The position numbers were made by a program, and so were the translations under genes. 64,000 nt of DNA from Deltaproteobacteria bacterium (lineage in GTDB: Bacteria > UBA10199 > DSSB01 > JACPFA01), in contig JACPFA010000043.1 in NCBI GenBank assembly GCA_016183235.1, forward strand, positions 1 through 64,000, read 5' to 3'. The notes beneath the pieces were generated by a model. That model saw nothing but the letters and a program-made list of their open reading frames with translations. It was not told where the DNA came from and made no database searches. Below are positions 14,901-53,465 of the stretch, in pieces. How positions within the stretch are numbered: the stretch's first letter is position 1; each line of letters opens with the position of its first letter.

Positions 14901-17091
14901 TGGCTACATATTCTTTGACTGATTCATAACTGCCTTTTTCCGCACCGCTTTCACCAAAAAACCCGTCAATCAACGGGCTTTGAGCTGACCAACGAAAGTA
15001 TTCTACAAAACCGATAATCTCGGCAACGAGTTTAATACGATCGACTTGTTCAGCAGACGCATTTTTGGGTGTCACACCCCCGCGTTGGTAGCTTAGTATA
15101 TCATTTTGATTCTCTGTAAAGACACGGCCTAGTGATGCCCCAAAATGATCTAAGGGTATGTCTCGTACGTCTAATTCATCTTGGATGCCACTGACAGTTC
15201 GCAAGGCTTCAGTCAGTGAATCTGTAAGAGCATAAGAAATTTTTTTCTTGTCTAAGGGTCTGGGTAATACCATGGTTTTTGTTTCATCTTTTCTACGACG
15301 AACATCAGGGTACTGCCGCTCAGACACATAGGTGCCGTCTTTTTCTCCCAACCCAGGGATGGCTATTTTAAAAAGTAGCGAGTTCCACCAAGGGCGCCTT
15401 TCACCATAGTCACCTGCCCGGCCTCTCGGGCCAAGCACGGCGGGGTCTACGTTTGCGGCAAAGGCAAGCCGTGGGCCCATGAGACCGACCTGTTGATCCC
15501 AGCTTAAATTGGGGAAAAAATTTTGCCAATTTCTGCCGGTATGATCCCAGAGCCTAGCTAGCGACGGATTGCGAATGATTCTGCCAGCAATGTGAGCCTG
15601 TGTCTCCATTTTGGCAAAGGCCTGTTGGCCTGACCGACCCCACACAATATTTAAGCCCTTGCTTGCGACCATGGGCGTAGCATAGCCAAAAAACCCTTGG
15701 GGAATGGCGGCTTGCCAAGGCAAAGGTTTGTCGCGCAAATGCACAACATATTCCAATTGAGGTGCAACCGTAAAGGCAGCTACACCTAAAGCTGGCCGTA
15801 ACGCTTGTTGTGAATAGGTACTGGCTGAAATGAACCTTTGCGCCACACCCAGACCCGTTACGTTATGTAATCTGGAATGAGCATAGCTTGCAGACATGCC
15901 ACTCCCATGCAAAAGCCCAAAGGTTAGCAAATTAGCCCCCGCCATCTTGCCCACACCCTCTAAGGTAATGGGTAGCCCACGATGGTGTTGAAAATAAGTG
16001 CCCAGCCCTGTCATCACGGCGGTTTCACCCAATATTACCCCGGCCCCTACTTTAGTTAAGGCCCAAGAACCACGGTTAGAATAAATGGGTAAACTTGATA
16101 AAACCAACTTGGGGGCTTGGCTTAAGTAACGGGCCATGGCGACACTCTTGATCATCCGCCCCACCACAAAGGCACCGCCAAAACTCAAAATAGATTCTAA
16201 ACTGGTGGCACTGGAAAAAAACCGCGTGCCTTGAAACACAAAAGCATCGACCCCACGCACACAAGGCCCCTCACCCGTAATCGCCCCAACTTGACATTGG
16301 GCTTGGTGTTGCAAGTGAGAATTTTTGTCTAAATTGTAGGCCCCTAAATTTTCACCATCAGCCACCACACCATAAATCACCACGGCTTCGTTAATGCGAT
16401 CGTCTAACGACAAGTTATTGGCCAAAGCAAAAAGCTCTTGTCTTAAATTCAACCCGGTTTCCCAGGGCAATGCCAAAATATATTGTCGAACTCCACTGCC
16501 ACCTAAGCCTTCATCTAATTCATTTTGAAGTTCTGCCGGTAAATTTTCCCAAGCCGCCTTTAAACTACGCCCTTCTGCCAGCGCATCCGTCAAACGATGA
16601 AAAACCGCCGGTGGATTTTTGTTATCGGATTCAGAATGGCGAGATTGATAAACGGCTAAAAATAATTTGACGGCATCGGAACGTCGAGCGGTGGCTTCGT
16701 ATTCATTAATACCCGTCAAAAGTTGATCAGCCAACGGATGCGATCTTCGTATTTTGGCTAGCTCTGCTTTAGCTGCTTCAAATTTTCCACTGGCTAAAGC
16801 AGAAATCCCTTCGGCAAGCGACCATTGCGTGGTGTCGCCTACTTCACTCGCTAATGTTTTCCATTGAGTGCAAAGGCCTTGCACTACGGAAGGATCTGAC
16901 GGCGAAGTAGCAAGGCGTTGAGCGATGGCTTGAGTGAAGGCCGCAAAGCGTTGGTCGATACTGAGTTTGGGCTCAGAGGATGCAACCACAGAGGCGGCTA
17001 AAGGTTGCGAATTCGCTGAGGGATAATAAGCGGGCTGGTAGGCCTTTTCATTATCAAACTTAAAGTTGAAACGCGGAGCAGGTGAAACCAT
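11953..17091 (-). CDS. Giant multidomain protein, GpsA-like and GGDEF-like domains (head/tail family P1)
   Basis: 1712 aa, not a known family as a whole. Residues 40-260 are helical and repeat-like. A head region follows with the pair Cys266-x10-Cys277 and Gly/Ala-rich hydrophobic segments (about 300-450) also seen in the genes at 34236, 46984 and 49957. Residues about 755-1125 resemble NAD-dependent glycerol-3-phosphate dehydrogenase: a Rossmann loop (SIGNGAMLG), FTIGRDAREVAAIN, PIKGVVG, and GGIYKNVATL containing the catalytic-type Lys1070. Residues about 1362-1460 (MMVDLDAMPFLNAYT and ISIGTANDYSNAIEK) look like a degenerate GGDEF fold without the signature loop. The C-terminus is unassigned. 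No signal peptide is evident. It is a single gene with its own start (ATG at 17091, MVSP as in the 46984 gene). Function unknown; domain calls are inference. Confidence 0.7.
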   Translation of the reverse strand: MVSPAPRFNFKFDNEKAYQPAYYPSANSQPLAASVVASSEPKLSIDQRFAAFTQAIAQRLATSPSDPSVVQGLCTQWKTLASEVGDTTQWSLAEGISALASGKFEAAKAELAKIRRSHPLADQLLTGINEYEATARRSDAVKLFLAVYQSRHSESDNKNPPAVFHRLTDALAEGRSLKAAWENLPAELQNELDEGLGGSGVRQYILALPWETGLNLRQELFALANNLSLDDRINEAVVIYGVVADGENLGAYNLDKNSHLQHQAQCQVGAITGEGPCVRGVDAFVFQGTRFFSSATSLESILSFGGAFVVGRMIKSVAMARYLSQAPKLVLSSLPIYSNRGSWALTKVGAGVILGETAVMTGLGTYFQHHRGLPITLEGVGKMAGANLLTFGLLHGSGMSASYAHSRLHNVTGLGVAQRFISASTYSQQALRPALGVAAFTVAPQLEYVVHLRDKPLPWQAAIPQGFFGYATPMVASKGLNIVWGRSGQQAFAKMETQAHIAGRIIRNPSLARLWDHTGRNWQNFFPNLSWDQQVGLMGPRLAFAANVDPAVLGPRGRAGDYGERRPWWNSLLFKIAIPGLGEKDGTYVSERQYPDVRRRKDETKTMVLPRPLDKKKISYALTDSLTEALRTVSGIQDELDVRDIPLDHFGASLGRVFTENQNDILSYQRGGVTPKNASAEQVDRIKLVAEIIGFVEYFRWSAQSPLIDGFFGESGAEKGSYESVKEYVANFFRPNLEQSPSEVRQTDVVPYTQGALSIGNGAMLGLLAALRYKIKPGPANLPFWYGLFTIGRDAREVAAINQQGKKLADKGGMLVNASHEAPVVAFQAESQQAEVLRRTMQLQWLNIPSSALPSVVTHDYIRNLPQHAILGCPIKGVVGLTRDRGTGQLRPLTRAELEDPNVEIVATYRPDQYIEKVIREVNVQRVGEMEGELVAAKNLLRSFFETLNLSEYQDVTAVGSSVDPVERFLQIPRSERNFLIGRYRKRASDTASVDAVRRIHELDHIDIVPVEGFYPQDLLFNGGGVTLTFYGPKEADQAARNLLKLYKSDYVQVATSDRMESGVWGGIYKNVATLDMGYQAGRLAFANLAPTVGSPVDLGYEISKIYSDRLKDMGQMVVVNEGARAAAQGVVFDQPVEADMRYCSSFNVKTLAEIAQAANAFGANSLTPDQARNFLTTRVLKSDVASTRNPKRGLMQAIIEHWNQKRALTEAGSGAADILPQEMRTIEGEITLPVLVARAHAQAHADQRRLPNFVYDSLKVFYPARYARIAPNLPAEVKLALREALYTDTVVNGNRIDSRDLRRAIDRADNTTIEILNNLFEGLAGLYTGVDRTPTTERPYVLQIEQINGMIKMVNQGRLPGAPIMMVDLDAMPFLNAYTIPFYDAGRVRIIGAYTYVKMTPEKAPQGLLRLGNLFRHYNTYQRSEVVVDLEISEPISIGTANDYSNAIEKTVQSFSELYGNHYTINFKTRVTEPPTEEQPTPEINHYERNLEKLAYTRESSGGFSMGFMSEVRQNFGLTPASVNGRAASTGRLLAPLFRDPNVQRLWTRLLIHQPKITVFTAIQAAMSRPENGLLLGDYDASGQLVNAYVLYDHRGQAYVSNPFIDPSNAPNLYNLSRGTSFKSFLADQKIYRKDHTLRILDIKQLPIIDALMGKYERVNPVALLRFLQGDATRVGELNRDLQPFYLEDTPGSKARAQALIKGYLESPPSP

Positions 17092-34235: not shown

Positions 34236-37200
34236 CTATTTTGCTTCTGTTGTTGCGGCAGACGGGGTGGGTGACACCACCTCTTCGGGCCGTAACTCAA
34301 TGGGTGGAATGGCCCATTTATTAAGATTAGGATCATATAAGGATACAGATTCCCCTGCCCTTACTAATCCCATTCTCCGTTGCACCACCTCTTGTTTGGG
34401 GGCATCAATCGCCTCGAAGCCCAGATGTTTGATATGGTCTAGGTGGCTCAGCACTTGATCACCAGTTAACCCTCGCACATAGGCTGTGCCAAAAGATAAG
34501 CGGGTGGTTTGAGGAGAGGTGCCTTCCAATTTAGGTAAGGGTGAAAATTCTGCGGCTAAACTACCATCAGGTTGTGAAACAAAATGGGCAAAACGGCGAC
34601 CTTCTGGCAATTTGAATTGTTCAGGATAAAGTTCGGCTTCGTAATGTGCATCAAAATGAGTGTAGAGTTCATAAAGAAAACGATCGTTGATCGAAGACCC
34701 TGGCCTATATTCTTGGGGATTCTTTATCAAAGGATCTCTTTGGTTCTCTAAATTAAATTCTGAAGTGATGATAATATATTCGTCACCCTCTTTAATCATC
34801 ACAAAACGTTGGGCGATTTCAGTACGCTTAAATTTATCAGGGCTATCACCTTCTTTGATGGCCAAGTATTGCGCCCCCATCAAACCATCTAAAAAAACCT
34901 CACTAATTCTAAAAGCACCCACATCGACTAAACTCTGATTGTGCCGTGAGTTAAGATAGGCCGACATGTCATTAACATCAAAAATATAAACGTTAAACCG
35001 CGGCGGTTGACCTTTCGCTGAGGCTTGCTTGGTTTCCCTGGCCACAAAGTCTTCTACCGCCATGGGAGCAAATTCATCATCGACGATCATCGACAAACGA
35101 GGATTTTCATAAATACGACGGGCCACTCGCGACATTCGGTGGGCATTTTTAAAGGCCAATTGAATTCCCTCAATAACTTGCTCTGGCGTATAACCATTTT
35201 CGTTGAGCCCTCGTGATTTTAAGGTTTTGGCCTCTGCTAACCATCCACGTAAACGAGGCAGGGCTGCGGCGTAGTTGTTGCCCATAATGCCGGTTAAATC
35301 ATGATTAGGGCGACCAAAGAGGCCCAAATAAGTTTGCAAACCAACCGAGGCTGAAGTGGGCAAGGCCCCCATCAAAGGATCATAAACCTCCAACACAGTA
35401 GGCATGTCGCCACCCATGACCATAAGGCTTCGGGCTAAAGGATGGGGATCGCCTACTACGGCTAAACCACGTATCAACACATCGACTTTATGCGACCTAC
35501 GATCAAAGTTATAAAGATCATTATGCACTTGCGTTGGGGTTAAATTTCTCCCGGGGGGAATTTGTTTGGCTAAATAGGGTGCTATATCAGCATCAGCAAT
35601 AGGATCGGTATGTAACCCTCGTATACCCGACTTTTCGATATGTTCGGCGCTAGCGGTTAGCCTTTGATGTAATACATGGGGAGCCGCATCACCTAATGCT
35701 GCAATACTGGCTTGAGACACGGTTTCTAAACGTGTCGGTGGAAGAAAATTGGGCCATTCACCTTGGCTTAAATCATGACCTTTGGAGCGAAGATGCCCTG
35801 ACAAGGCATGAGGATAGGCATCTACCACTTCTCTCATGATAGGCTCCGCCTCTGCCATTCCTACATCCATCATCACAAATAAGGTCACTCGACCATCAGG
35901 TGTTACCAACCCTAAGGCCCCTCGATTGAGCAAATCGATTTGCTCTTGCAAACGCCCATAATTTGGATTGGATGTGGCCATGCCGGTCAAACGAGTCTGC
36001 ATCACGGGTAGCAAGCGGGCACGTAATTGGGCCCTAAAATAATCGCGACTAAAGGCAAAAACCTCACTGCCTAATTGATGCGAAGGATCAACTTGATTAT
36101 ACTGCGTCATCGGAAAAAGAATTTTACCGATGGTAAATTCAGCGTTTGAATCAATGCGCAAAACTTGGGCCCGGCGGTTCAAGGCTTCATCAATAATCTC
36201 TTCACGATTACCACCGCGCAGGTATAAGCGCGCCATGTGGGGATATAATTCAAAAAGTTGATTAACGTAAGCATCGATGGTTTTAAAATCAACTTCCCCT
36301 CTCCTTAATTGTCTTGTGGTTAAATTATTTACCAAAGGATCTAAGCCAACAAACACGTCTATCAAACGTTGTCGCAAGGTAAAGGGGTTGGCATGAGCAG
36401 GGTTGATGGTCCCTAAATCTTGGGGAATAACGGGATCGGAATAGCGGGCAAAGTCGGGGCTTAAGGCAGTGGCCATTGAAGTTGGGCGCCATGAATTAGG
36501 GTTGTTATGGTAATTAGTGAGCCAACCACGTAGATCACCTGAGCTAGCAACATGGTTTAAGAATGGTTCAATCACTTCGGGTCCCGCTGCTAAAATGTCA
36601 CTTAAAGTTTGTCTTAATTCACGGGGCAATCGATCGCCACGCACATCTTTGATATGCTGATTAAAATTGTAAAGCCATGCTTCAAAAGCGAGGGGGTTAT
36701 TCTTTCGCATCCTACTTAAGGCCGTGAGCAAATTGGCCATGGGCATGCCTGCCTCCATGGGTATGCCTAGTTTCCAACAAAGAAATTTCAAGTGGGCATC
36801 GAGAAAACGAGCGACTTTTGCGGGATGTTCTCTTGCTTCTTCAGAGGGGGCTTTAAAGGGAGGGATGGGGATTTCTGCTAATTTTTGCCAAGGATCAACT
36901 GCGCCTCCTAAATCCCCCTTCAAGGCCTTGGAAAAAGACACAAACTTTTCCCAAGGTTTGGCCGTTGGTTTAAATTGCCCCGACGGATAAGCGCCCGCTA
37001 ACGCCAACTGCGGGCCTACGGGCTGAAAACCAGGAAAATTAGGGAAATTTTTCCATGGGCTTTTTGAATAACGTAAATTCCAATCGGCAACATATTGCTT
37101 AATGCTTAACCCACGTTGTAGACCTGGCACCATTCCCATGGCTTCGTGCGTGGCTTTACCTTGAACGGTAAATTTAACGGTTTCGGTGAGGGCGTAAGTG

Positions 37201-37967
37201 TAAGGATTGGCCCCTGGTGGTAGTGCACCAAAAACTTGATTAGCAGTTAATACTCCGGAATAGGTGCCGCCATATTGAGCAAGCGGTTTGGTGAAAGGCT
37301 GCCAAGCTACGCGCTTTGTGGCCTGGCCCGTTATTGCGTCGCTGGCATGAAGAGTTACCGCCCCTCGCCCCCATACACCTTGGACCCCTTTCAGAACAGA
37401 AAGATAGCCAACATTGCTCCAATACCCTTGCGATAATGGCCCATGGTCGGGGCCGGCCAAGGTTAGCACCGCTGCTTCGGCATGAACTTCGGGGATAGCA
37501 ATGAGCAATCGCTCGCCCCACGCCGGTAATTGGGGCAAAATACCGGCACGGTAAAGTCCTGGCAAACCGCGAGTGCCCCCAATCCGCGCCCCAGCACCAG
37601 CCAAACCCATGCCTGAAAATAATAGCAGGTTGGGCCAAGTGATTGTGTTGCCAAGATCTCTCGCAAAAATCCGCACATCAGCAGAACTAAAATCACCTTG
37701 GTGAGTTAAAGCATTGTAAACCTGAGTGGCCTCGTACCGTAAAATCCCTGGTAATTCTGGCAAAACCGTAGGGTCGATGAGGATGGGAAGAACCTCCAGG
37801 GCATCTTGATCGCGGCCAGCATCCACGAACCGATACACAAGTTCCATGATCTTTCGCCCGGCCATCTCAGGGTCACTGTTGCGGGCGGTTTCGATTAATT
37901 TACCGAAACCATTGAAGTTTTGACAGGGCGGTGAATGAACGCCAATACCCCTTAAGCAATCGTTCAT
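34236..37967 (-). CDS. Giant multidomain protein with GGDEF-like domain (head/tail family P2)
   Basis: 1243 aa, not a known family as a whole. The N-terminus has Cys4-x10-Cys15, then a Gly/Ala-rich hydrophobic head (about 110-210) like the 1712-residue protein. Both also share a short motif (NFPNFPGFQPVGPQLALAG here, NFFPNLSWDQQVGLMGPRLAFA-like there). The middle (about 380-980) is helical and unassigned. Residues about 989-1190 look like a GGDEF domain: VYIFDVNDMSAYLNSRHN resembles the N-terminal DxDxFK region, KEGDEYIII (about 1059-1067) matches the GGDEF loop as EGDEY, and RLSFGTAY matches the SIGxA strand. The first Gly of the loop is lost and there is a long insertion, so cyclase activity is doubtful. 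No signal peptide. Inference throughout. Confidence 0.65.
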   Translation of the reverse strand: MNDCLRGIGVHSPPCQNFNGFGKLIETARNSDPEMAGRKIMELVYRFVDAGRDQDALEVLPILIDPTVLPELPGILRYEATQVYNALTHQGDFSSADVRIFARDLGNTITWPNLLLFSGMGLAGAGARIGGTRGLPGLYRAGILPQLPAWGERLLIAIPEVHAEAAVLTLAGPDHGPLSQGYWSNVGYLSVLKGVQGVWGRGAVTLHASDAITGQATKRVAWQPFTKPLAQYGGTYSGVLTANQVFGALPPGANPYTYALTETVKFTVQGKATHEAMGMVPGLQRGLSIKQYVADWNLRYSKSPWKNFPNFPGFQPVGPQLALAGAYPSGQFKPTAKPWEKFVSFSKALKGDLGGAVDPWQKLAEIPIPPFKAPSEEAREHPAKVARFLDAHLKFLCWKLGIPMEAGMPMANLLTALSRMRKNNPLAFEAWLYNFNQHIKDVRGDRLPRELRQTLSDILAAGPEVIEPFLNHVASSGDLRGWLTNYHNNPNSWRPTSMATALSPDFARYSDPVIPQDLGTINPAHANPFTLRQRLIDVFVGLDPLVNNLTTRQLRRGEVDFKTIDAYVNQLFELYPHMARLYLRGGNREEIIDEALNRRAQVLRIDSNAEFTIGKILFPMTQYNQVDPSHQLGSEVFAFSRDYFRAQLRARLLPVMQTRLTGMATSNPNYGRLQEQIDLLNRGALGLVTPDGRVTLFVMMDVGMAEAEPIMREVVDAYPHALSGHLRSKGHDLSQGEWPNFLPPTRLETVSQASIAALGDAAPHVLHQRLTASAEHIEKSGIRGLHTDPIADADIAPYLAKQIPPGRNLTPTQVHNDLYNFDRRSHKVDVLIRGLAVVGDPHPLARSLMVMGGDMPTVLEVYDPLMGALPTSASVGLQTYLGLFGRPNHDLTGIMGNNYAAALPRLRGWLAEAKTLKSRGLNENGYTPEQVIEGIQLAFKNAHRMSRVARRIYENPRLSMIVDDEFAPMAVEDFVARETKQASAKGQPPRFNVYIFDVNDMSAYLNSRHNQSLVDVGAFRISEVFLDGLMGAQYLAIKEGDSPDKFKRTEIAQRFVMIKEGDEYIIITSEFNLENQRDPLIKNPQEYRPGSSINDRFLYELYTHFDAHYEAELYPEQFKLPEGRRFAHFVSQPDGSLAAEFSPLPKLEGTSPQTTRLSFGTAYVRGLTGDQVLSHLDHIKHLGFEAIDAPKQEVVQRRMGLVRAGESVSLYDPNLNKWAIPPIELRPEEVVSPTPSAATTEAK

Positions 37968-38016: not shown

Positions 38017-39255
38017 CTATTCCAGGAGAAAATGCCGTTCAATTAATAAATCCCCTAAAGACACGGCCTTGAATCCTTCAAGAGTTATCCGCTGTTCTTT
38101 TTTTTCATCATAATGTTTGGGTGACGGTGTCAAAAGTGCTTTTGCCAAATATTCGGTTGGAATAATATTCTTATAGTTAGGTTTGACATATGTTTCGTAA
38201 TATTCTTTAACTTTTGAATGACAGATGTCCTTTAATTTTAATTCGAAATCCGTCCCTAGTTTAGCACCTTCATCCTTCATCCATTCCTCTGAAAAAGAAA
38301 ACCTATACGCTAAGGTTCGACCCCCTGTATTTTGAAAACTAATCCGTATAAAGGAATTGTCCGAATCAAAATCTTTTCCTGAGCGTATTTTAAATTTTAC
38401 CGTATCATTATCATCAAAAGATGATATCTGATATTGCCGATACAGATCTTTAAATCGTTCTTTAAATGATTCAACCCATTTTTTAGAAAATTCTATATTT
38501 TCAAATAAAGCTTCTAAATCAACAAGTAGATCATGGTTTTTAATTTTATCTACTTTTTGGACAAGCTGTTCAAAAGCATCTTTGATCGTATAAGGGTGCT
38601 TTGCGTGCCTTAATCGAAGAATGTTGGGAATCACCCCTTTCTGCATATACCACATCAGATCATAATAATCGCGGCCCTTGACCTTAACCCCTCTTTTTTC
38701 CCAAATGCGTTCCAAGCAAGCAAGCATTTTACCAGACATGAGGGTTGGTAAGTCATAATGTCGAATAACAAAACTAAAGCGATCTTGAGCAACTGTTTTC
38801 CATTCTGTAGGATAGGTCTCTTTAATTTGATTCACTTCTACCTTAATGATTAAAGTTTCCTGTTCATGAGCAGACAAACCAAGCTGATAAAGCACGGGAA
38901 ATCTTAATTCAATACGGCCAATTCCACTTCCTGGAGTATGTGCACTGATCGAAGGATATTGAACATTTTTGACAAAATATTCCTTGATCTGATTTGCAAA
39001 TTGTTTTTTGTCAAACAAAGTGGTGGTTTCAAAATCAACGTCTTCCGACATTCGGTTAATACCAAAACAAATTCTTAAACAGGTCCCTCCATAAAAAACT
39101 AAATGATTATACTTCATACTGTTGTAAATGAAATCCAACACATATAATTGTAATTTCTCTTTGAGCTTAATTTTGAGAACATCAGAACGAAGGTTTAAAC
39201 GTTTACCTTCTTGGATGACGTACTCAAGGTCATTGATCAGCGTTCCCATTATCAA
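38017..39255 (-). CDS. AbiEii/AbiGii-type nucleotidyltransferase toxin
   Basis: 412 aa. The nucleotidyltransferase motif FYGGTCLRICFGINR followed by SEDVDFE matches the GG(T)xLR...R.SEDxDF signature of AbiEii toxins. Type IV systems of this kind (AbiE) cause bacteriostasis and abortive phage infection; related toxins add nucleotides to tRNA. The C-terminal half (about 250-412) carries no recognised motif. The start (ATG at 39255 or two codons later) overlaps the antitoxin stop by 4 bp. Base composition is more AT-rich than the flanking genes, consistent with horizontal acquisition. Confidence 0.85.
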   Translation of the reverse strand: MIMGTLINDLEYVIQEGKRLNLRSDVLKIKLKEKLQLYVLDFIYNSMKYNHLVFYGGTCLRICFGINRMSEDVDFETTTLFDKKQFANQIKEYFVKNVQYPSISAHTPGSGIGRIELRFPVLYQLGLSAHEQETLIIKVEVNQIKETYPTEWKTVAQDRFSFVIRHYDLPTLMSGKMLACLERIWEKRGVKVKGRDYYDLMWYMQKGVIPNILRLRHAKHPYTIKDAFEQLVQKVDKIKNHDLLVDLEALFENIEFSKKWVESFKERFKDLYRQYQISSFDDNDTVKFKIRSGKDFDSDNSFIRISFQNTGGRTLAYRFSFSEEWMKDEGAKLGTDFELKLKDICHSKVKEYYETYVKPNYKNIIPTEYLAKALLTPSPKHYDEKKEQRITLEGFKAVSLGDLLIERHFLLE

Positions 39256-39884
39256 TAAATCCTCTTTAATGATGGAATCATGCGAATCATTTTTTTAATG
39301 CCACTTCTTAAGATCATTTGACATAACTCATCAAAAGATGGCCGATCTAGTTGTGACCAATTGATCCGCAATCCCTCAAGGCTCGAAACATCTTGCGGAT
39401 CCAAACCGGCTAGTCGCAGATAAAGAAAATCAAAAAGCGCTTTAGCTAAAATTGCTTCATAAATGATATGATGGCCGTAAGGCCGTTGCTTAAAGCCAAA
39501 ATAAAATTTTTGATTAAAATGGTGATAAACAAAAGAACCCAAGTTGTTTCGATAGTGACGCGTTGTCTTTAGTGTAACTGAAGTGATTGTAAAGGTAGCC
39601 TCGGTTAATAAATTATTTTTTTGGAGCACATATTCTAAACTCAAATAGGATGGCATAACCAATTTGTTCGCCACCAGTTCTAGATATGATGCATCGTGAA
39701 GAAACCGATCAACAAAGGTCTTGGTTACATAGAGGCCATTTTTCAAACGAACGAGATAACCTGTATTCACCCATCTTTGTAGATTCTGATAGAGGGCTCG
39801 TGTTTGAATACTTTGAAGGGTAGCAATGCTGCTTTTTGAAAAAAAAGGTAGTGATTCTAATTGGTTGATGATGTTTCGTTTCAT
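39252..39884 (-). CDS. AbiEi-like antitoxin / transcriptional regulator
   Basis: 210 aa. The N-terminal winged-helix region (FFSKSSIATLQSI..., NLQRWVNTGYLVRLKNGLYV) is the usual AbiEi antitoxin DNA-binding part, which represses the operon. The central part (SYLSLEYVLQKNNLLTEATF) is typical of AbiEi/AbiGi proteins. It is the first gene of the pair and overlaps the toxin by 4 bp. In type IV systems antitoxin and toxin do not need to bind each other. Confidence 0.85.
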   Translation of the reverse strand: MKRNIINQLESLPFFSKSSIATLQSIQTRALYQNLQRWVNTGYLVRLKNGLYVTKTFVDRFLHDASYLELVANKLVMPSYLSLEYVLQKNNLLTEATFTITSVTLKTTRHYRNNLGSFVYHHFNQKFYFGFKQRPYGHHIIYEAILAKALFDFLYLRLAGLDPQDVSSLEGLRINWSQLDRPSFDELCQMILRSGIKKMIRMIPSLKRIY

Positions 39885-45415: not shown

Positions 45416-45664
45416 TGAAAAATCTTTTGGAGGGGCAAAGGTGTTTTATGAGAACCTGTAGCGCAGGAGGGCGGATCCAACGCATGCGCCTCAGGACAGG
45501 CTCCGGAGGGCATCTGTCATTGCGAGCCCAACGGGCGAAGCAATCTCACCGGTTAAACCGAGGAGATTGCTTCGTCGCAGACTCCTCGCAATGACAGGGG
45601 CCCGACTAGGCCGACCGGGCGCGGGTTCTCATAAAACACCTTTGCCCCTCCAAAAGATTTTTCA
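45416..45664. repeat. Palindrome with 41-bp perfect arms enclosing a REP-1 pair
   Basis: TGAAAAATCTTTTGGAGGGG... (45416-45456) and its perfect inverse (45624-45664) flank an inverted REP-1 pair (45516-45599). The element lies exactly between two divergent genes and ends beside their start regions, so promoters for both must lie inside or overlap it. Confidence 0.92.
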
Positions 45665-45681
45665 AATAATTAGGAGATGTT

Positions 45682-46464
45682 GTGTCTTTGGTTCTTTACG
45701 AAGAAATTGGCCCTATTGCTAAAATTACCTTTAACAACGAATCCCAATTAAACGCTATGACTCCTGAGATGGGTGATGAACTGAGTGCGCGTATCCGCCA
45801 ACTACAAACGCGTTCTGATCTTCGTTGTGTATTGTTTACCGGCAAAGGCAAGGCTTTTTCTTCAGGTGGTAATCTTGATTTTATTATTTCGCATACCCAA
45901 AAAGACATCCCCACTAACAAAAAAGAGATGATCGAATTTTATTCTAAGTTTCTCATCCTCAAAAACCTCCCCATGCCAACGATTGCTATTATCAACGGCG
46001 CTGCGATTGGTGCAGGGCTATGCATTGCCATGGCTTGTGATTTGCGAGTTGCAAGTCACGGGGCTAAACTTGGGGTCAACTTTGCCAAAATTGGGCTCTC
46101 CAGTGGGATGGGTTGTTTGTATCACCTGGTGCAATTGGTAGGCATTGGCCATGCCGCCGAATTACTTTTTACCGGCAAAATTATTACCGCCGAAGAGGCC
46201 CATACCATCGGCCTGGTGAATCACGTGTGTTCACTCGACGGCCTAGAGGCTCAAAGCATGAACCTCGCTCAAAGTATTGCCGAAAATTCACCGCTGGCTA
46301 TTAAAATCATTAAACAAGGTCTCTTGCGAGCGCCTCATTCCACGCTAGAAGAATTATTTGATTACGAATCTGAAGGCCAAGCCAAATCTTTTGCCTCACA
46401 AGACCTCCTCGAAGGCATCTCGGCCCTCAAAGAAAAACGCCCACCCAATTTTAAGGGGAAATAA
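45682..46464 (+). CDS. Enoyl-CoA hydratase/isomerase family protein
   Basis: 260 aa with a GTG start at 45682 preceded by AGGAGA. Crotonase-fold signatures GKAFSSGGNLDFI and AIINGAAIGAGLCIAMACDLR form the oxyanion hole. Where many hydratases have a catalytic Glu, it reads GVNFAKIGLSSGMG, so the usual acid is not evident. It may be an isomerase, a hydrolase or a hydratase with altered catalysis. It is divergent from the leucine operon across a palindrome and is likely involved in acyl-CoA catabolism. Its stop overlaps the convergent 135-aa gene by 14 bp. Confidence 0.85.
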   Translation: MSLVLYEEIGPIAKITFNNESQLNAMTPEMGDELSARIRQLQTRSDLRCVLFTGKGKAFSSGGNLDFIISHTQKDIPTNKKEMIEFYSKFLILKNLPMPTIAIINGAAIGAGLCIAMACDLRVASHGAKLGVNFAKIGLSSGMGCLYHLVQLVGIGHAAELLFTGKIITAEEAHTIGLVNHVCSLDGLEAQSMNLAQSIAENSPLAIKIIKQGLLRAPHSTLEELFDYESEGQAKSFASQDLLEGISALKEKRPPNFKGK

Positions 46465-46858
46465 GGGGCGCCAATTCTTCGCGTGAAAAATAAACGAACA
46501 TCAAGCGCCGTTGTTCCGGGCTAAGCCCTAAATCTTTTGCAAAATAAGCTATTCTTCTATCACTATAATCCGCTTTTACCATTGCTTCTCCTAATGTGCC
46601 TTTTTCACCACGAAACTTAACTTGCAACGCACGAGCTGCAACTGTTGAATTTCCGTACTTTGCGGTTATGGCAGCATCTAACATTTTTGCCACATAAACA
46701 TTAAGTCGGATCTTCTTCGGAGAAAGGAGGGAAAGAACAACGAGTTGTACAAGAGAGAAAAACCAATAAAGGATGGTGAATAAAAAAGAAAAGATGACTC
46801 TCACGGGATTTTGTAGTCTATCCAATGCCTGTTTTGTGGTCCAGTTTTGCCCGACCAT
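46451..46858 (-). CDS. Orphan tail-cassette protein of the giant family
   Basis: 135 aa. Residues about 18-48 form one or two hydrophobic membrane segments (VIFSFLFTILYWFFSLVQLV). Residues about 50-133 align along their length with the last about 85 residues of the protein at 49957 (compare FAKDLGLSPEQRRLMFVYFS with MAQVLKLDFEQRRLLYIYLN, and the ARALQVKF / GRAANIKV segment). It sits 125 bp downstream, on the same strand, of a giant-family gene that has a different tail. It therefore looks like a displaced C-terminal module or a separate small member. Function unknown. Confidence 0.65.
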   Translation of the reverse strand: MVGQNWTTKQALDRLQNPVRVIFSFLFTILYWFFSLVQLVVLSLLSPKKIRLNVYVAKMLDAAITAKYGNSTVAARALQVKFRGEKGTLGEAMVKADYSDRRIAYFAKDLGLSPEQRRLMFVYFSREELAPLISP

Positions 46859-46864
46859 TATAAT

Positions 46865-46983
46865 ATAGGCCAGAAATTGCTAAGCGGCAATCTTATGTAT
46901 TTTTTGCCAAACTGTGGAGGCCTTGGCGGCATGCCATAAATCATAATTTGGACTAAACATCACAAATTCACTCCATTTATTGC
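46865..46983 (-). other. Spacer with a possible 26-codon reading frame
   Basis: Between the 711-residue gene and the orphan cassette a minus-strand frame runs from an ATG at 46960 to a TAG at 46880-46882 (MFSPNYDLWHAAKASTVWQK...). A GGAG lies about 11 nt before the ATG. It may be a decayed remnant of a longer tail or chance. Confidence 0.2.
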
Positions 46984-49119
46984 TTAGTTGGCTAAGGGAA
47001 TTTTAAGTTTATAAGAAGCCGATTCACGTGGCCTTGGGATATCAAATTCATCATCCGTGTAGGGAACCTCCTCAACTTTCTCTAAACCAGCTCGTACAAA
47101 ACGATTGCGAAGCCCTGAATTAACTACACCCAGAAACACCAATTCAAAATGCCCTTGCCCTTTCCAAGCCGCCATGGCTGTGGCTAATAGAGGTTTAGCA
47201 ACTTGATTAAAGCGACCTTGGCCTCGTGCTTTTTTATAAATGTAAATATTATAAAGAGTGATTCTGTTAGGATATGGATGACGCTGAAAGACTTTGAACA
47301 AACCATAACCCAACTCCTCACCTCGTTCTTGAATCCTAACTATCATGGCACCAAAATGGTTCCATCTGAAAAATAAAGGAAACGCTTCTCTAAAAAAGTT
47401 TGTTGGGTTTGTTGTTTCAAAAATCACATCGGGGGTTGCGTACTTAGTCCATTCGCCTGCTCCATAATCATCAACAGTTGGTTTAACCCCTGTGGGAGGA
47501 GCAAACAATTTCCAACTATTCAGTTCTTCCATCGCTGCTTTAAAATCTTCTTCTTTTGCATAGGCCAATCTTGCTGCCCCATCGGCCTGCTGTGTCGGAA
47601 ATAATTTGATAACATAACTATGAGATGTCCCTTCTGGATCATAAGAAACAGCTTCATAATTTGAACGAGCTAATCGTATAGCCAAATTTCGATTTCTTAC
47701 TTCCTCTCGAACCACAACCAGGGCTGCATTATTTTGCGCAGCCAACTCCAGTGCTGCCCCTAACGACATTTTTTCCATCCAAAAACCCAAACCTCTTCCT
47801 CTGGCCTCAGGCGCTACATAAAGGAGATGATTCACCAATTGAAATTCGCCTGAAGCAAGTCTTGAAAAGCTAAATTCACAAATGGCCTGCCTAGCACCAC
47901 TCGCATCTTGAACCATTAAATGTAATTTAGGTTGTTGATGATCTAAGTTAGCGATCGCCTCTAAAATATGTTTCATGGAGTTGGTTAGATCGGCAGGGTT
48001 TACAATAACAATTTTGTCAAACTTTTCCGATACCGGTTGTAAATACAATCTGAAATCAGGCATTCCTGCTTTGCTAACCGGCATATCTCGAAAAGGCGCC
48101 AGAAACACTTCATCGTATTTTTCTGCCCACTCTAAAGCCCTTTGGGGATAAACGGTCTTTTTCCCTACTCTAATATCACCTTCTGAATAGGCTCGAAAAC
48201 CACCCTTTTCGCTTAGCCCCCTGCCCGAGCCTGCTTCGACAAGTAATGGTTTCATTCCTGTGGAAGAAAAATCAGGAAATTGAAAAGTTTTTAACCATTC
48301 CCGATAACGATTTGCATCTAAAACACTCGCTAAAAATTTTCCTTGGGTATGTAAGCGTGTAGCCACATTCCCATAGGCGGGAATAAATTCGTACACACCC
48401 CGCATCCCCACCATAAATTGCGCTTGTGTGGTGGCCGCTTGATAAACATCTTGCCCTACTGCCACCATCCCCACCGTGCCCCCCACAAACGCGCTCGTCA
48501 CCCGAGTAAACCCCATTGCCCCGGCTAGCCTCAGGCTATCATGCCTTCCCCATTGATGAATCGCTTTTGGTAAAACCCCACTAGCACCCATGCCTAATCG
48601 TAATCCCAACCACCCTATCCCAGTGTGAAAAAACTCTTCCCCTACATTAACCGGTTGTCCCGCTTTTACCTTATGCGCCACCCCTATCCCGGTGATACCC
48701 ATTACTTCGGTCGTAACCCCTGCACCCTTGGCCAATAGTGTAGCAGGCTTGCCTCGATTCCACCAACTCTCAACTCGTCTCCCCATCCACCCCATCACCC
48801 TATTCCGGGTCATTTGCCCCACCAACCCTACCCCTGCCAATAACGCCACATCACCCAAATCTAGATTCTGCATCACCTGCGTGGACCCACCCACCACTCG
48901 CTCTACACTGCCACACCCGCGTTTACTCTCAGCACCTCCCTTACATAATTCACTGGCTGCTAATGCAGCTTCATACCCCCCTTGCTCTTCGACCCATTGT
49001 AATAACGATGCACCAATGGCCTTCTGTTGCTCATCGCCAAAGCGCAACAGCTCAGCACCTCGCAACCGCAAGGCCTGCACTAATTGTGGATCTTGTGAAT
49101 ACCTGACCGGACTTACCAT
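46984..49119 (-). CDS. Giant-family protein with two GNAT-like domains (P3)
   Basis: 711 aa, ATG at 49119 with a GGGGGG ribosome site. Residues 1-264 are the shared head: helical start, Cys-x9-Cys (ELCKGGAESKRGCG), then Gly/Ala-rich hydrophobic segments (LDLGDVALLAGVGLVGQMTR; VTSAFVGGTVGMVAVG). After residue 264 the sequence departs completely from the 49957 protein. Residues about 380-505 resemble an N-acetyltransferase (YVAPEARGRGLGFWMEKMSL, the acetyl-CoA loop). Residues about 560-705 hold a second (YIYKKARGQGRFNQVAKPLL). Substrate unknown. The head DNA is near-identical to 52650-53439. No signal peptide. Confidence 0.7.
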   Translation of the reverse strand: MVSPVRYSQDPQLVQALRLRGAELLRFGDEQQKAIGASLLQWVEEQGGYEAALAASELCKGGAESKRGCGSVERVVGGSTQVMQNLDLGDVALLAGVGLVGQMTRNRVMGWMGRRVESWWNRGKPATLLAKGAGVTTEVMGITGIGVAHKVKAGQPVNVGEEFFHTGIGWLGLRLGMGASGVLPKAIHQWGRHDSLRLAGAMGFTRVTSAFVGGTVGMVAVGQDVYQAATTQAQFMVGMRGVYEFIPAYGNVATRLHTQGKFLASVLDANRYREWLKTFQFPDFSSTGMKPLLVEAGSGRGLSEKGGFRAYSEGDIRVGKKTVYPQRALEWAEKYDEVFLAPFRDMPVSKAGMPDFRLYLQPVSEKFDKIVIVNPADLTNSMKHILEAIANLDHQQPKLHLMVQDASGARQAICEFSFSRLASGEFQLVNHLLYVAPEARGRGLGFWMEKMSLGAALELAAQNNAALVVVREEVRNRNLAIRLARSNYEAVSYDPEGTSHSYVIKLFPTQQADGAARLAYAKEEDFKAAMEELNSWKLFAPPTGVKPTVDDYGAGEWTKYATPDVIFETTNPTNFFREAFPLFFRWNHFGAMIVRIQERGEELGYGLFKVFQRHPYPNRITLYNIYIYKKARGQGRFNQVAKPLLATAMAAWKGQGHFELVFLGVVNSGLRNRFVRAGLEKVEEVPYTDDEFDIPRPRESASYKLKIPLAN

Positions 49120-49252: not shown

Positions 49253-49510
49253 ATGCGTGAAATAACTTCAACAAAATTAGGTAGACAGCTGCGTCAAGTG
49301 CTCGATTGGGTCGAATCAAAAGGTGAAGAAGTGGTTGTGACTCGAAACAAACAACGTATCGCTTGTATCATCCCTGGCCCCGCCCGAATGACAGCCCTAG
49401 AAGCTTTATCGGACCTATATCGCACGCTCCCTGAAAAAGCGGCCCCCGGGTGGCTTGAAAAAAGGCCTAAACAGAACCTAAATTCATTGCACAATCCATG
49501 GGATATTTAA
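49253..49510 (+). CDS. Antitoxin, Phd/YefM type
   Basis: An 85-aa protein opening MREITSTKLGRQLRQVLDWV, the Phd/YefM fold that binds the operator and whose extended C-terminus covers the toxin. The VVVTRNKQRIACIIPG strand segment is typical of the family. It overlaps the PIN toxin gene by 13 bp. Phd-type antitoxins commonly pair with PIN as well as Doc toxins. Confidence 0.83.
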   Translation: MREITSTKLGRQLRQVLDWVESKGEEVVVTRNKQRIACIIPGPARMTALEALSDLYRTLPEKAAPGWLEKRPKQNLNSLHNPWDI

Positions 49511-49917
49511 TCGACACCTGTATTTGGGTAGATGTTGAGCGGGGGGCTCTTGCTCCTGCTGATATTGCCGATCATACTAAAAATGAGCCTGTCTTCATAT
49601 CGCCTATTACTTTAGCCGAACTAAAATTTGGGGCAGAAATCACCCAACAACCTGACCTCAAACAAAAAAGGCTCGCTGCTGTTCACCGACTGATGAACAA
49701 ACCTATCTTGCGCATTGATGAAGCCACGGGCATTATCTTTGGGACATTGGCCGCCGCCTTAAAAAAGACCGGGCGTGGGCATGAATTTCGAATTCAAGAT
49801 CTATGGATGGCAAGTCAATGTGTGCAACATAATATCAGCCTTATCACGCACAATTTGAAAGATTTTAAAGATATCCCCGGCCTAGAAATTTTACTTATCG
49901 GTAAATCGCAAAAATAA
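49498..49917 (+). CDS. vapC: PIN-domain ribonuclease toxin (VapC-like)
   Basis: A 139-aa PIN-domain protein with the metal-binding residues Asp6 (LIDTCIWVD), Glu41 (TLAELKFG), Asp101 (IQDLWMASQ) and the THNLKDF motif (Asn119/Asp122). It is a predicted endoribonuclease inhibited by the preceding Phd-like protein. The pair lies between two giant-family genes with near-identical heads and might stabilise the duplicated segment. The 3' end is 40 bp from the convergent gene at 49957. Confidence 0.9.
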   Translation: MGYLIDTCIWVDVERGALAPADIADHTKNEPVFISPITLAELKFGAEITQQPDLKQKRLAAVHRLMNKPILRIDEATGIIFGTLAAALKKTGRGHEFRIQDLWMASQCVQHNISLITHNLKDFKDIPGLEILLIGKSQK

Positions 49918-49956: not shown

Positions 49957-52900
49957 TCACCTCGGGTTGGCCTCTTCTAACATAGGTTTAAGGGCTGCCT
50001 CGTTTAAATAAATATATAAAAGCCTTCTTTGTTCAAAATCTAATTTCAAAACTTGCGCCATATGGTCAATATCTACTTCGCCATATTCACGCTTGAGCGC
50101 TTGGCTCAATTTTTCACCCTGTCTTGTTACCTTGATATTTGCTGCACGGCCGGCCGCTAGATGGGAATCAAAATGTAGATCGGCTGCGTGATCGATGATA
50201 TTCAGCACCTGAATTTTTAAACGATCAAAATTGTTTCCTTCTGGAAGAGAATAATTAAAATGCCCCGTTGCACCTCGACCTAAAAAATAAGCTAATCTTG
50301 AGCTAAAAAAAGTTTCATACATGCGGCGATAAGAAAGCCAAGGGAAGCGTTGATGGATACGCCGAATGTCTTCAATGTATAAAGGGTCAGATACTTTCAA
50401 AAGCCTTTTTCCAACAGTAGCCAACTGAGCTTCGTTGCCTTCATAACCCAAACTTTTGGCCAATTCCGTAGCCGATGCTATTCTTTCCTTCTGCATAGCT
50501 GCCTTTAGTTCTTTTTTCACACTCTCAACCGGCGACCATAATGTTACAGGATCCAAAGGTGCAACATGAGGTTTTAGATCCGTGAGTGTTTTAACAGGGT
50601 AGAGTTTGAGCAACTCAGGACGACAAGCCAAATACAGGAGCGGTAACATAAGCCGTTGCTCAGCCGGATCAGGCCACAACCATTGGCCCACTCTAACTAA
50701 CAACAAGTCTTCTTGAAAGCCTGAAACTCCTAGCTCAATGTTTATGACTTGATTGCCTGAAATCCCCAAGACAAGGCCAACTTCTTTGGCATTCTTTTTC
50801 ATTGCCATACGTCTGGCAAAGAATAATTCCCCCACTTTCAATGCCGCCAAACGCTCAGCCCATCCCTCGGGTACGTCTAAATAGCCATCCGATGTCAATA
50901 AATTAGGAAAAAGTTTCCCTGCCTCAGGATGCTGCCCTTGCACCATCCTGTTGATAGGCAGATGAGGCAAGGCTCGTCTTAATTTCACAAGGATTTCTAG
51001 ATCGGTAACTGCTCCCCCTACGATATGACTTATGGTATTGCGGCCCATCCCAGAGCTTTTCGCAACATCTGAAAAGCTGGCATCACCCACTGCATAGGCC
51101 AAATCAAAAGAGAACGTATTCGCAACATGACCCTTTGCTGCATAGATTGATTTTAACAACTCAACAGGGAGCCCGGCTCGTTGAAATACATTCCCCCAAA
51201 AACCTACATTTTCCATAAGTACTTTTATTTCACCTGACTCAAGATAGCTCCATTGGCAATCTCTGCCCCGCCCTACTAAATGTTTTAAATCTGTAGCCCG
51301 AGGTAGATTATAATCTGCTTTGCGATAGGCAAATGCTACATGGCCCATGCTCCCGGGATTTTTCACATATTGGGCAAGCTTAGCCTCTTCATCGACGCTA
51401 TCAATATAAACACTCTGTTGAGGGAAAAGTAGTTCTAGGGTTGGCAACAAAGCCTGATGATAAGTATGATTCATCCGATCAATTAAATTGGCCACGGGCT
51501 CGCCGGTAACTTTTGACAAAGCCAGCAAGGTTGACCGAATAGGCTTCCTCTTATTTAATTCAAGCTCACTCAGTGTGTTTTCATCTATATTTAAGGCCTT
51601 TGCAAACTCCGATCGAGTATAATAATGATCCGGATTTTTTCGATATCGGTAGGCCCATGCGCCAAGACTTTCTGCTTTAGGATCTTGTTGTTTATAAAAA
51701 CGCACTCGTGCAACATCATTTTCCCCTTCAAAATAAATGGGGAAATAGGCTGTTTTCCATTGTTTTGCACTTATTGTTTGCCCATGCTTAATGCGATTCG
51801 AAGATTCAATCAAATAGCGAACATCAACTCTATAAATTTTAGCCAGACTTTGTAAAACCTTAAAATCAGGAGCCGCCCAATCGGTTAACACTTCATATTT
51901 TTCCAATCTAGCTTCTGTAATTTCTATTCCATCCTCTATACGCAGGCGCTCTCTCACCTCTCCTAATGTAAGCCCTTGCCTTTTACGCAATTCAGTTAAC
52001 AAGTCCGGAAACGGTTTTAAATTTTCAGGCGGAATCCAAGCGGCTGTTTCAAAAGTCATTCTTAGAACACGAACACCTTGCTCACTAAAATCGGCTATGA
52101 CCTCACCGGCTTCGTTAGGTTTCATAGGATATTTTGCGATATTGTCGCGAATCTTAGTAAAAAGAATGGCCGAACCATCAACAAAAACAAAACATACTTC
52201 TTGCAAATTTTGATGACGCTTAAATAAAAGTTTCACAGCAGCTTTTGTTAAAATCTTTTTAAAAGTTTTCCTGCTCCCTCGGATAGTAATTACAGCAAAT
52301 TGATGGTTGGTGTTTATTTTTGTATCGACCATTGCCACCATTTCAGCAATGGCGGCTGTTTTCCCTTTTATCCTTAAAGGATATTCTCTGACTAAGGTCT
52401 CTTGGGCTGTTGTTCTGTCGACCGTTGTCCTTGCACCTAACCATTTCAACCATTCGGCTTTAACCTTTTCAGGCCAAGCAGGTGATGGCTCAGGTTCACC
52501 TGCATTAGGTCGCGGAGTCCCTTCAAGCAAAATAGGACGTGATCGAAAGTTAGAAACTTCACCTACAGTTGCCGTTGCCCAAGCAAAATTATTTGATAAA
52601 CGAAAACCATCATTGGGTGGAAAATATTTTCTCAAGTCAAGACGTGCGGCAAGAAAACGCCCGTGGGTATGTAAGCGTGTCGCCACATAATTATAAGCCG
52701 GCACAAACTCACGCACACCCCTCATCCCGACCATAAATTGCGCTTGCGTGGTGGCCGCTTGATAAACATCTTGTCCTACTGCGACCATCCCCACCGTGCC
52801 TCCCACAAAGGCACTCGTCACCCGGCTGAACGTCATGGCCCCGGCTAGCCTCGGCACTTCATACCTTCCCCATTGATGAAGTACCTTGGGCACAACACCC

Positions 52901-53439
52901 AATCCCTCCATCCCCAACCGTAATCCCAACCAACCTATCCCGGTATGAAAAAATTCTTCGCCCACATAAACCGGCTGGCCTGCTTTTATCTTCTGCGCCA
53001 CCCCTATCCCGGTGATACCCATTACTTCGGTCGTAACCCCTGCACCCTTGGCCAATAGTGTCGCAGGCTTGCCTCGATTCCACCAACTCTCAACTCGTCT
53101 CCCCATCCACCCCATCACCCTATTCCGGGTCATTTGTCCCAATAACCCTACCCCCGCCAATAACGCCACATCACCCAAATCTAGATTCTGCATCACCTGG
53201 GTGGCCCCACCCACCACTCGCTCTACGCTGCCACACCCGCGTTTACTCTCAGCACCTCCCTTACATAATTCACTGGCTGCTAATGCAGCTTCATACCCCC
53301 CTTGCTCTTCGACCCATTGTAATAACGATGCACCAATGGTCCTCTGTTGCTCATCGCCAAAGCGCAACAGCTCACTACCTCGCAACCGCAAGGCTTGGGC
53401 TAATTGTGGATCTTGTAAATACCTGACCGGACCTGACAC
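49957..53439 (-). CDS. Giant-family protein with repeated XRE-type HTH modules (P4)
   Basis: 1160 aa from the GTG at 53439, chosen because the homologous ATG of the 46984 gene sits at the same position after a GGGGGG site; a TTG at 53463 is the alternative. Residues 1-264 are the shared head with Cys-x9-Cys. The tail has at least three and perhaps five helix-turn-helix-like units, at about 480-545 (LLTELRKRQGLTLGEVRERL), 610-655 (FAKALNIDENTLSELELNKR), 785-830 (FSDVAKSSGMGRNTISHIVG), 880-920 (AKEVGLVLGISGNQVINIE) and 985-1040. The last 85 residues match the orphan cassette at 46451. Repeated XRE units in one chain with a hydrophobic head are unusual. DNA binding is inferred; no signal peptide. 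Confidence 0.7.
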   Translation of the reverse strand: MSGPVRYLQDPQLAQALRLRGSELLRFGDEQQRTIGASLLQWVEEQGGYEAALAASELCKGGAESKRGCGSVERVVGGATQVMQNLDLGDVALLAGVGLLGQMTRNRVMGWMGRRVESWWNRGKPATLLAKGAGVTTEVMGITGIGVAQKIKAGQPVYVGEEFFHTGIGWLGLRLGMEGLGVVPKVLHQWGRYEVPRLAGAMTFSRVTSAFVGGTVGMVAVGQDVYQAATTQAQFMVGMRGVREFVPAYNYVATRLHTHGRFLAARLDLRKYFPPNDGFRLSNNFAWATATVGEVSNFRSRPILLEGTPRPNAGEPEPSPAWPEKVKAEWLKWLGARTTVDRTTAQETLVREYPLRIKGKTAAIAEMVAMVDTKINTNHQFAVITIRGSRKTFKKILTKAAVKLLFKRHQNLQEVCFVFVDGSAILFTKIRDNIAKYPMKPNEAGEVIADFSEQGVRVLRMTFETAAWIPPENLKPFPDLLTELRKRQGLTLGEVRERLRIEDGIEITEARLEKYEVLTDWAAPDFKVLQSLAKIYRVDVRYLIESSNRIKHGQTISAKQWKTAYFPIYFEGENDVARVRFYKQQDPKAESLGAWAYRYRKNPDHYYTRSEFAKALNIDENTLSELELNKRKPIRSTLLALSKVTGEPVANLIDRMNHTYHQALLPTLELLFPQQSVYIDSVDEEAKLAQYVKNPGSMGHVAFAYRKADYNLPRATDLKHLVGRGRDCQWSYLESGEIKVLMENVGFWGNVFQRAGLPVELLKSIYAAKGHVANTFSFDLAYAVGDASFSDVAKSSGMGRNTISHIVGGAVTDLEILVKLRRALPHLPINRMVQGQHPEAGKLFPNLLTSDGYLDVPEGWAERLAALKVGELFFARRMAMKKNAKEVGLVLGISGNQVINIELGVSGFQEDLLLVRVGQWLWPDPAEQRLMLPLLYLACRPELLKLYPVKTLTDLKPHVAPLDPVTLWSPVESVKKELKAAMQKERIASATELAKSLGYEGNEAQLATVGKRLLKVSDPLYIEDIRRIHQRFPWLSYRRMYETFFSSRLAYFLGRGATGHFNYSLPEGNNFDRLKIQVLNIIDHAADLHFDSHLAAGRAANIKVTRQGEKLSQALKREYGEVDIDHMAQVLKLDFEQRRLLYIYLNEAALKPMLEEANPR

Positions 53440-53465
53440 AATCCCCCCAGGATTAAGTGACAACC

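Follow-up and report, generated by a model that had tools for sequence, protein, structure and literature searches.

A probable 3′ remnant of a multi-HTH gene beside two members of an unannotated head family in a deltaproteobacterial contig

The locus and its genes

The DNA considered here, called the window, is a stretch of 64,000 nucleotides from a deltaproteobacterial assembly (GCA_016183235.1, contig JACPFA010000043.1, positions 1 to 64,000). It contains a short open reading frame, the orphan, close to two large genes that are named below by their first coordinate. The features of the locus are as follows.

45682-46464, plus strand: enoyl-CoA hydratase-like gene, identified from sequence, convergent to the orphan
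46451-46858, minus strand: orphan ORF, 135 aa, with an ATG start, overlapping the convergent enoyl-CoA hydratase gene by 14 bp
46454-46708, minus strand: terminal module, orphan residues 51-135, homologue of the 49957 protein's final 84 residues
46709-46858, minus strand: orphan residues 1-50, predicted hydrophobic helix, no homologue, coding log-odds about 0
46883-46948, minus strand: C-terminal stub of a HigA-family antitoxin, NYDLWHAAKASTVWQKIHKIAA, with matches to HigA C-termini and its stop at 46880-46882
46984-49119, minus strand: head gene, 711 aa, GNAT-type tail
49253-49510, plus strand: Phd/YefM-like antitoxin, between the 46984 and 49957 head genes
49498-49917, plus strand: PIN-domain toxin, paired with this antitoxin (49253-49917 together)
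49957-53463, minus strand: head gene, 1168 aa, multi-HTH (XRE) tail
49960-50223, minus strand: terminal module of the 49957 tail, counterpart of the orphan

The orphan follows the 46984 gene on the same strand at a distance of 125 bp, and the tail of that gene consists of GNAT domains, differing from the multi-HTH type to which the orphan belongs. The preliminary description of this DNA had placed the orphan downstream of a head gene with a different tail, and rightly so. There is no Shine-Dalgarno-like motif upstream of the orphan ATG, which is also true of several genuine genes in the window. Elsewhere in the window, an AbiEi/AbiEii type IV toxin-antitoxin pair is found at 38017-39884 (minus strand), and positions 45416-45664 hold a short repeat of about 60-120 bp, copies of which, about 80% identical, lie at several window sites and on contigs C25 and C26. 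A 41-bp perfect inverted repeat (45416-45456 and 45624-45664) lies within this stretch.

Adjoining the 46984 gene on its downstream side, and directly upstream of the orphan, is a frame of 40 codons whose last residues read NYDLWHAAKASTVWQKIHKIAA. In the class it is closest to a HigA antitoxin, whose C-terminus it matches at E 4e-4; L084 and L085, which rank next, are likewise HigA-like C-termini; the TIGR02607 assignment among its matches belongs to L083. The likeness to this family spans the final 22 residues and extends to the stop, which falls exactly where that of the matched HigA does. In 2000 shuffles the score was never attained. The DNA of the stub has a coding-like signature. In contrast to HigA genes proper, it is a C-terminus alone, and no partner toxin was recognised at the locus.

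The head family

The 49957 and 46984 proteins have in common an N-terminal head of about 270 residues made up of TPR-like and Gly/Ala-rich helices. At the DNA level these heads share 89% identity along 835 bp, from shortly before the start codon into the head, and this repeat takes in nothing near the orphan. Matches to HTH_3 and HTH_31 are found in the 49957 tail. On other contigs of the genome there are two more strong heads, one whose tail is GNAT-like by its resemblance to the 711-aa protein, the other carrying histidine-phosphatase and HutD domains. Weaker head matches, in proteins without a Pfam domain, occur in the window at 11953-17091 (1712 aa) and 34236-37967 (1243 aa), both on the minus strand.

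The family is abundant in a few relatives: G001, G002, G003 and G007 yield at least 49 matches each (86-120 candidates at first look) and G004 yields 37, against about 9 in the genome studied here; none was found in the 40 other genomes of the class. Further loci are L026-L029 and L091-L110. The tails fused to these heads are diverse metabolic and signalling enzymes, with no toxins among them. They include carboxyltransferase, biotin carboxylase, PLP enzymes, proline and aldehyde dehydrogenases, amino acid permease, protein kinase, histidine kinase, GGDEF and acyltransferase domains. The head region of the scanned proteins matched no Pfam or NCBIfam family, its best PDB sequence match is weak and partial (a cytochrome c555 construct, E 0.003), and its structure model, at pLDDT 51, is too weak for a fold search. 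A literature search with a limited set of terms found no published description of the family, and this unannotated head is the point of wider interest at the locus.

Homology of the orphan to the multi-HTH tail

The match of about 85 residues between the orphan and the C-terminus of the 49957 protein, first noticed in the preliminary description, is real. A pairwise BLASTP comparison places orphan residues 51-134 against residues 1081-1163 of the 49957 protein, with 30% identity, 52% positives and E 5e-10, and a search of the whole genome with the orphan finds two places only, the second at 49978-50223 (E 2e-6). The local score of 106 lies 14 SD above the mean of 300 shuffles (mean 35, SD 4.9, maximum 59). 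Alignment by hhalign to a profile of five full tails, built without the orphan, gave P 5.6e-6, so that the similarity is not weak in either the pairwise or the profile comparison. The 1176-aa protein of G003, which belongs to another family of the same order, matches the orphan independently (32%, E 3e-6). A chance resemblance of some unrelated small protein, in whose favor it can be said that identity reaches 30% only, is refuted at these E-values and has a negligible probability. A match of the orphan to glutamate synthase in G008 (E 0.009) was dismissed as chance.

The homology holds for residues 51-135, but residues 1-50 match nothing. The orphan thus keeps the last 84 or so of about 760 tail residues, and the N-terminal head and the full tail are absent. 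A three-residue insertion at EQRRL is common to the orphan and the 49957 tail and is lacking in relatives, which suggests that the two tails are paralogues that arose within this lineage.

AlphaFold predicts a short helical bundle for the C-terminal half of the orphan, with block pLDDT mostly 79-90, and one long helix for residues 8-44. Foldseek searches of the PDB returned mostly lambda-repressor-like HTH proteins (ClgR, phage CI) at the top, each with E above 1. The last two helices of the terminal module are shared with an internal repeat of the tail (partial match, P 0.0045). On these models the module may be a degenerate XRE-like helix-turn-helix. It resembles XRE/Cro-C1 domains (Pfam HTH_3 and HTH_31) in its predicted helical bundle and in its parent tail, which bears both; unlike them, neither the module nor the whole orphan has a Pfam match.

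The first fifty codons

The preliminary description took the orphan tail to be fused to new membrane segments, a reading that the first 50 codons do not support. Nothing in 46 genomes of the class is homologous to residues 1-50 at better than E 0.18. Synonymous codon bias alone failed to separate genes from non-genes, but full-codon log-odds succeeded when ordinary and membrane-like stretches of this genome's ORFs were used as control windows. By this measure residues 1-50 score close to 0 per codon, which puts them among the bottom 2% of either kind of window. Residues 51-135 score 0.22-0.28 per codon, with a value of 0.284 in frame, inside the 5-95% range of window genes. Followed along the strand, the coding signal starts high over the HigA stub, fades to nil around 46711-46850 and rises again in the tail module. 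The DNA of residues 1-50 is 74% pyrimidine over 100 nt, beyond every TM-like control window; this bias is not decisive alone, since a membrane helix would partly give it. The hydropathy peak in frame is 2.12 versus 1.2-1.3 in the other two frames. These first 50 codons are most likely non-coding pyrimidine-rich DNA that is read through.

Distribution of the terminal module

A six-sequence profile of the terminal module was searched against 46 genomes of the class, a set that holds no genome from the genus or family of the window organism; the phylum-level search covered the same 46. Matches were confined to five genomes of the order (G000, G001, G002, G003 and G007), in which the module forms the C-terminus of multi-HTH head proteins. 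It occurs as an orphan twice, in the window and on contig C45 of G003. It has, therefore, no wide distribution away from head genes; such a distribution is what the preliminary description had said would count against its reading. The full-length relatives it had predicted, with an orphan-type tail on a head like that of 46984, did not appear in the class search, nor did such tails on any other non-HTH head. The 135-aa frame as a whole has no orthologue in the 46 genomes or in plasmid and phage collections, and the latter gave no match to the orphan at all.

One weak extra match lies inside a G001 protein and marks an internal repeat. A multi-HTH head protein of G001 (L029, 7035-10214) has its HTH region duplicated internally, the second copy being residues 745-1044, and lacks terminal modules. 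In G000 a 2495-aa protein (contig C33, L030, 6505-13992) has one segment homologous to the multi-HTH tail.

In G001, G002 and G007 argG is followed by a multi-HTH head gene and then by another head gene. On contig C45 of G003 the order is argG, a fasciclin gene, about 57 codons of multi-HTH C-terminus, and a head gene.

L039 661-852, minus strand: second orphan terminal module, the stub of about 57 codons on contig C45 of G003

This stub is 75.7% identical in DNA to the G007 gene, its frame runs beyond the normal stop, and its breakpoint is close to that of the window orphan. The multi-HTH gene next to argG was lost from G003 by deletion or replacement, leaving a 3′ stub, and the fasciclin gene now stands where its upstream part was.

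Age of the orphan

The four strong heads of this genome are 64-84% identical, the neighboring 46984 and 49957 heads being 84% identical. Between families, heads are 15-23% and tails 29-30% identical, the tails being better conserved. The orphan and the 49957 tail, at 30%, are no closer than the tails of different families. With heads at 84% and tails at 30%, the orphan therefore does not stem from a recent duplication together with the neighboring head. Either it was once part of a separate gene of great age, or the adjacent head has since undergone replacement or conversion. No DNA match was found by blastn between the orphan region and either head gene or the head loci on C25 and C26. Between the orphan and its neighbors there is neither a toxin-family match nor an immunity-type ORF, and no immunity gene, integrase or transposase was seen at the orphan locus.

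Origin of the orphan

The orphan is probably the 3′ remnant left by the deletion of an anciently diverged multi-HTH paralogue. A second, old gene with a multi-HTH tail would once have occupied the space that separates the 46984 gene from the enoyl-CoA hydratase gene. A deletion or replacement would have taken its head along with the greater part of its tail, sparing the last module, a degenerate XRE-like HTH, and a HigA antitoxin gene in the same place would likewise have been cut down to its own 3′ stub. The start of the orphan ORF and its 'membrane' segment would be readthrough of junction DNA. The homology limited to the last module of the tail, the restricted distribution, the HigA stub and the analogous deletion in G003 all favor this origin, as does the lack of coding signal in the first 50 codons, unlike the HigA stub and residues 51-135. 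The want of any homologue of residues 1-50, the missing Shine-Dalgarno-like motif and the contrast between tails at 30% and heads at 84% identity point the same way. We infer from these a full-length gene at the orphan site, the order of events given here, and a product without function. No DNA scar of a deletion was found at the orphan locus. Against a remnant stand the 84 codons, which have stayed open and score like those of genes, a stop near the place where the tail should end, and the presence of an ATG. The open frame indicates that selective constraint on the tail lasted until late or persists today, and for this reason a small functional HTH protein is retained as an unlikely alternative. 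Such a protein would be membrane-anchored, or soluble by way of an internal start, and would bind DNA or the large multi-HTH protein. The genic codon signature of residues 51-135, the compact helical fold predicted for them and the hydropathy peak in frame suit it; the AlphaFold confidence weighs little against a remnant, because inherited sequence gives the same. The first 50 codons, with no homologue in the class and a codon score at the bottom of real membrane-like windows, the missing whole-ORF orthologue, and a neighboring HigA stub that marks a decaying stretch argue the other way. It is improbable that the module is a stand-alone unit under active retention, here serving the large headed multi-HTH protein as a small partner that binds DNA or competes with it, even with its survival alone beside head genes in two genomes and breakpoints at about the same module boundary.

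The preliminary description saw in the orphan a cassette of a tail-swapping locus. This interpretation is not supported: only the last module is kept, there is no DNA shared with either head gene for recombination and no toxin/immunity partner, the sequence is too diverged for joint duplication with an 84%-identical head, and the HigA stub intervenes. A related proposal, that the orphan is the displaced tail of 46984 itself, a 'fossil' in the CDI/Rhs style left when a GNAT cassette replaced a multi-HTH tail, is improbable. The position and strand of the orphan fit, the tail type is otherwise confined to this head family, and such an origin has been described for CDI orphans (PMC4927057). Heads at 84% beside tails at 30% would, however, require head conversion in addition, all the more so as tails outconserve heads between families, and the absence of shared DNA, immunity gene, integrase and transposase near the orphan, with the HigA stub in between, also speaks against it. 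If the orphan is a remnant, large head and multi-HTH genes in this lineage would be lost by deletion and leave 3′ stubs, which would fit heads copied as 5′ cassettes of about 835 bp onto unrelated tails, the old tails decaying separately.

Comparison with known systems

Orphans in CDI systems have been described as displaced 3′ ends downstream of a gene, and CDI and Rhs orphans are toxin/immunity pairs, many of which retain sequence in common with the parent gene (PMC4927057). With cdiA-CT/cdiI and rhs-CT orphans the window orphan shares a lone 3′ end that follows, on the same strand, a related gene with another C-terminus, and they are its closest counterpart in position. It differs from them in having no toxin/immunity pair, in being one terminal module, not a whole tail, in the absence of shared recombination sequence, in the regulatory or metabolic nature of the tails, and in its apparent derivation from a separate old paralogue. 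Position and homology are thus insufficient to call an orphan tail a swapping cassette.

Compared with deletion-truncated pseudogenes that persist as 3′ gene remnants, the window orphan is unlike in that its frame is open over the whole fragment. It is like them in being a C-terminal fragment without a start region, beside the 3′ stub of a HigA gene, and in the syntenic deletion seen in a relative, G003.
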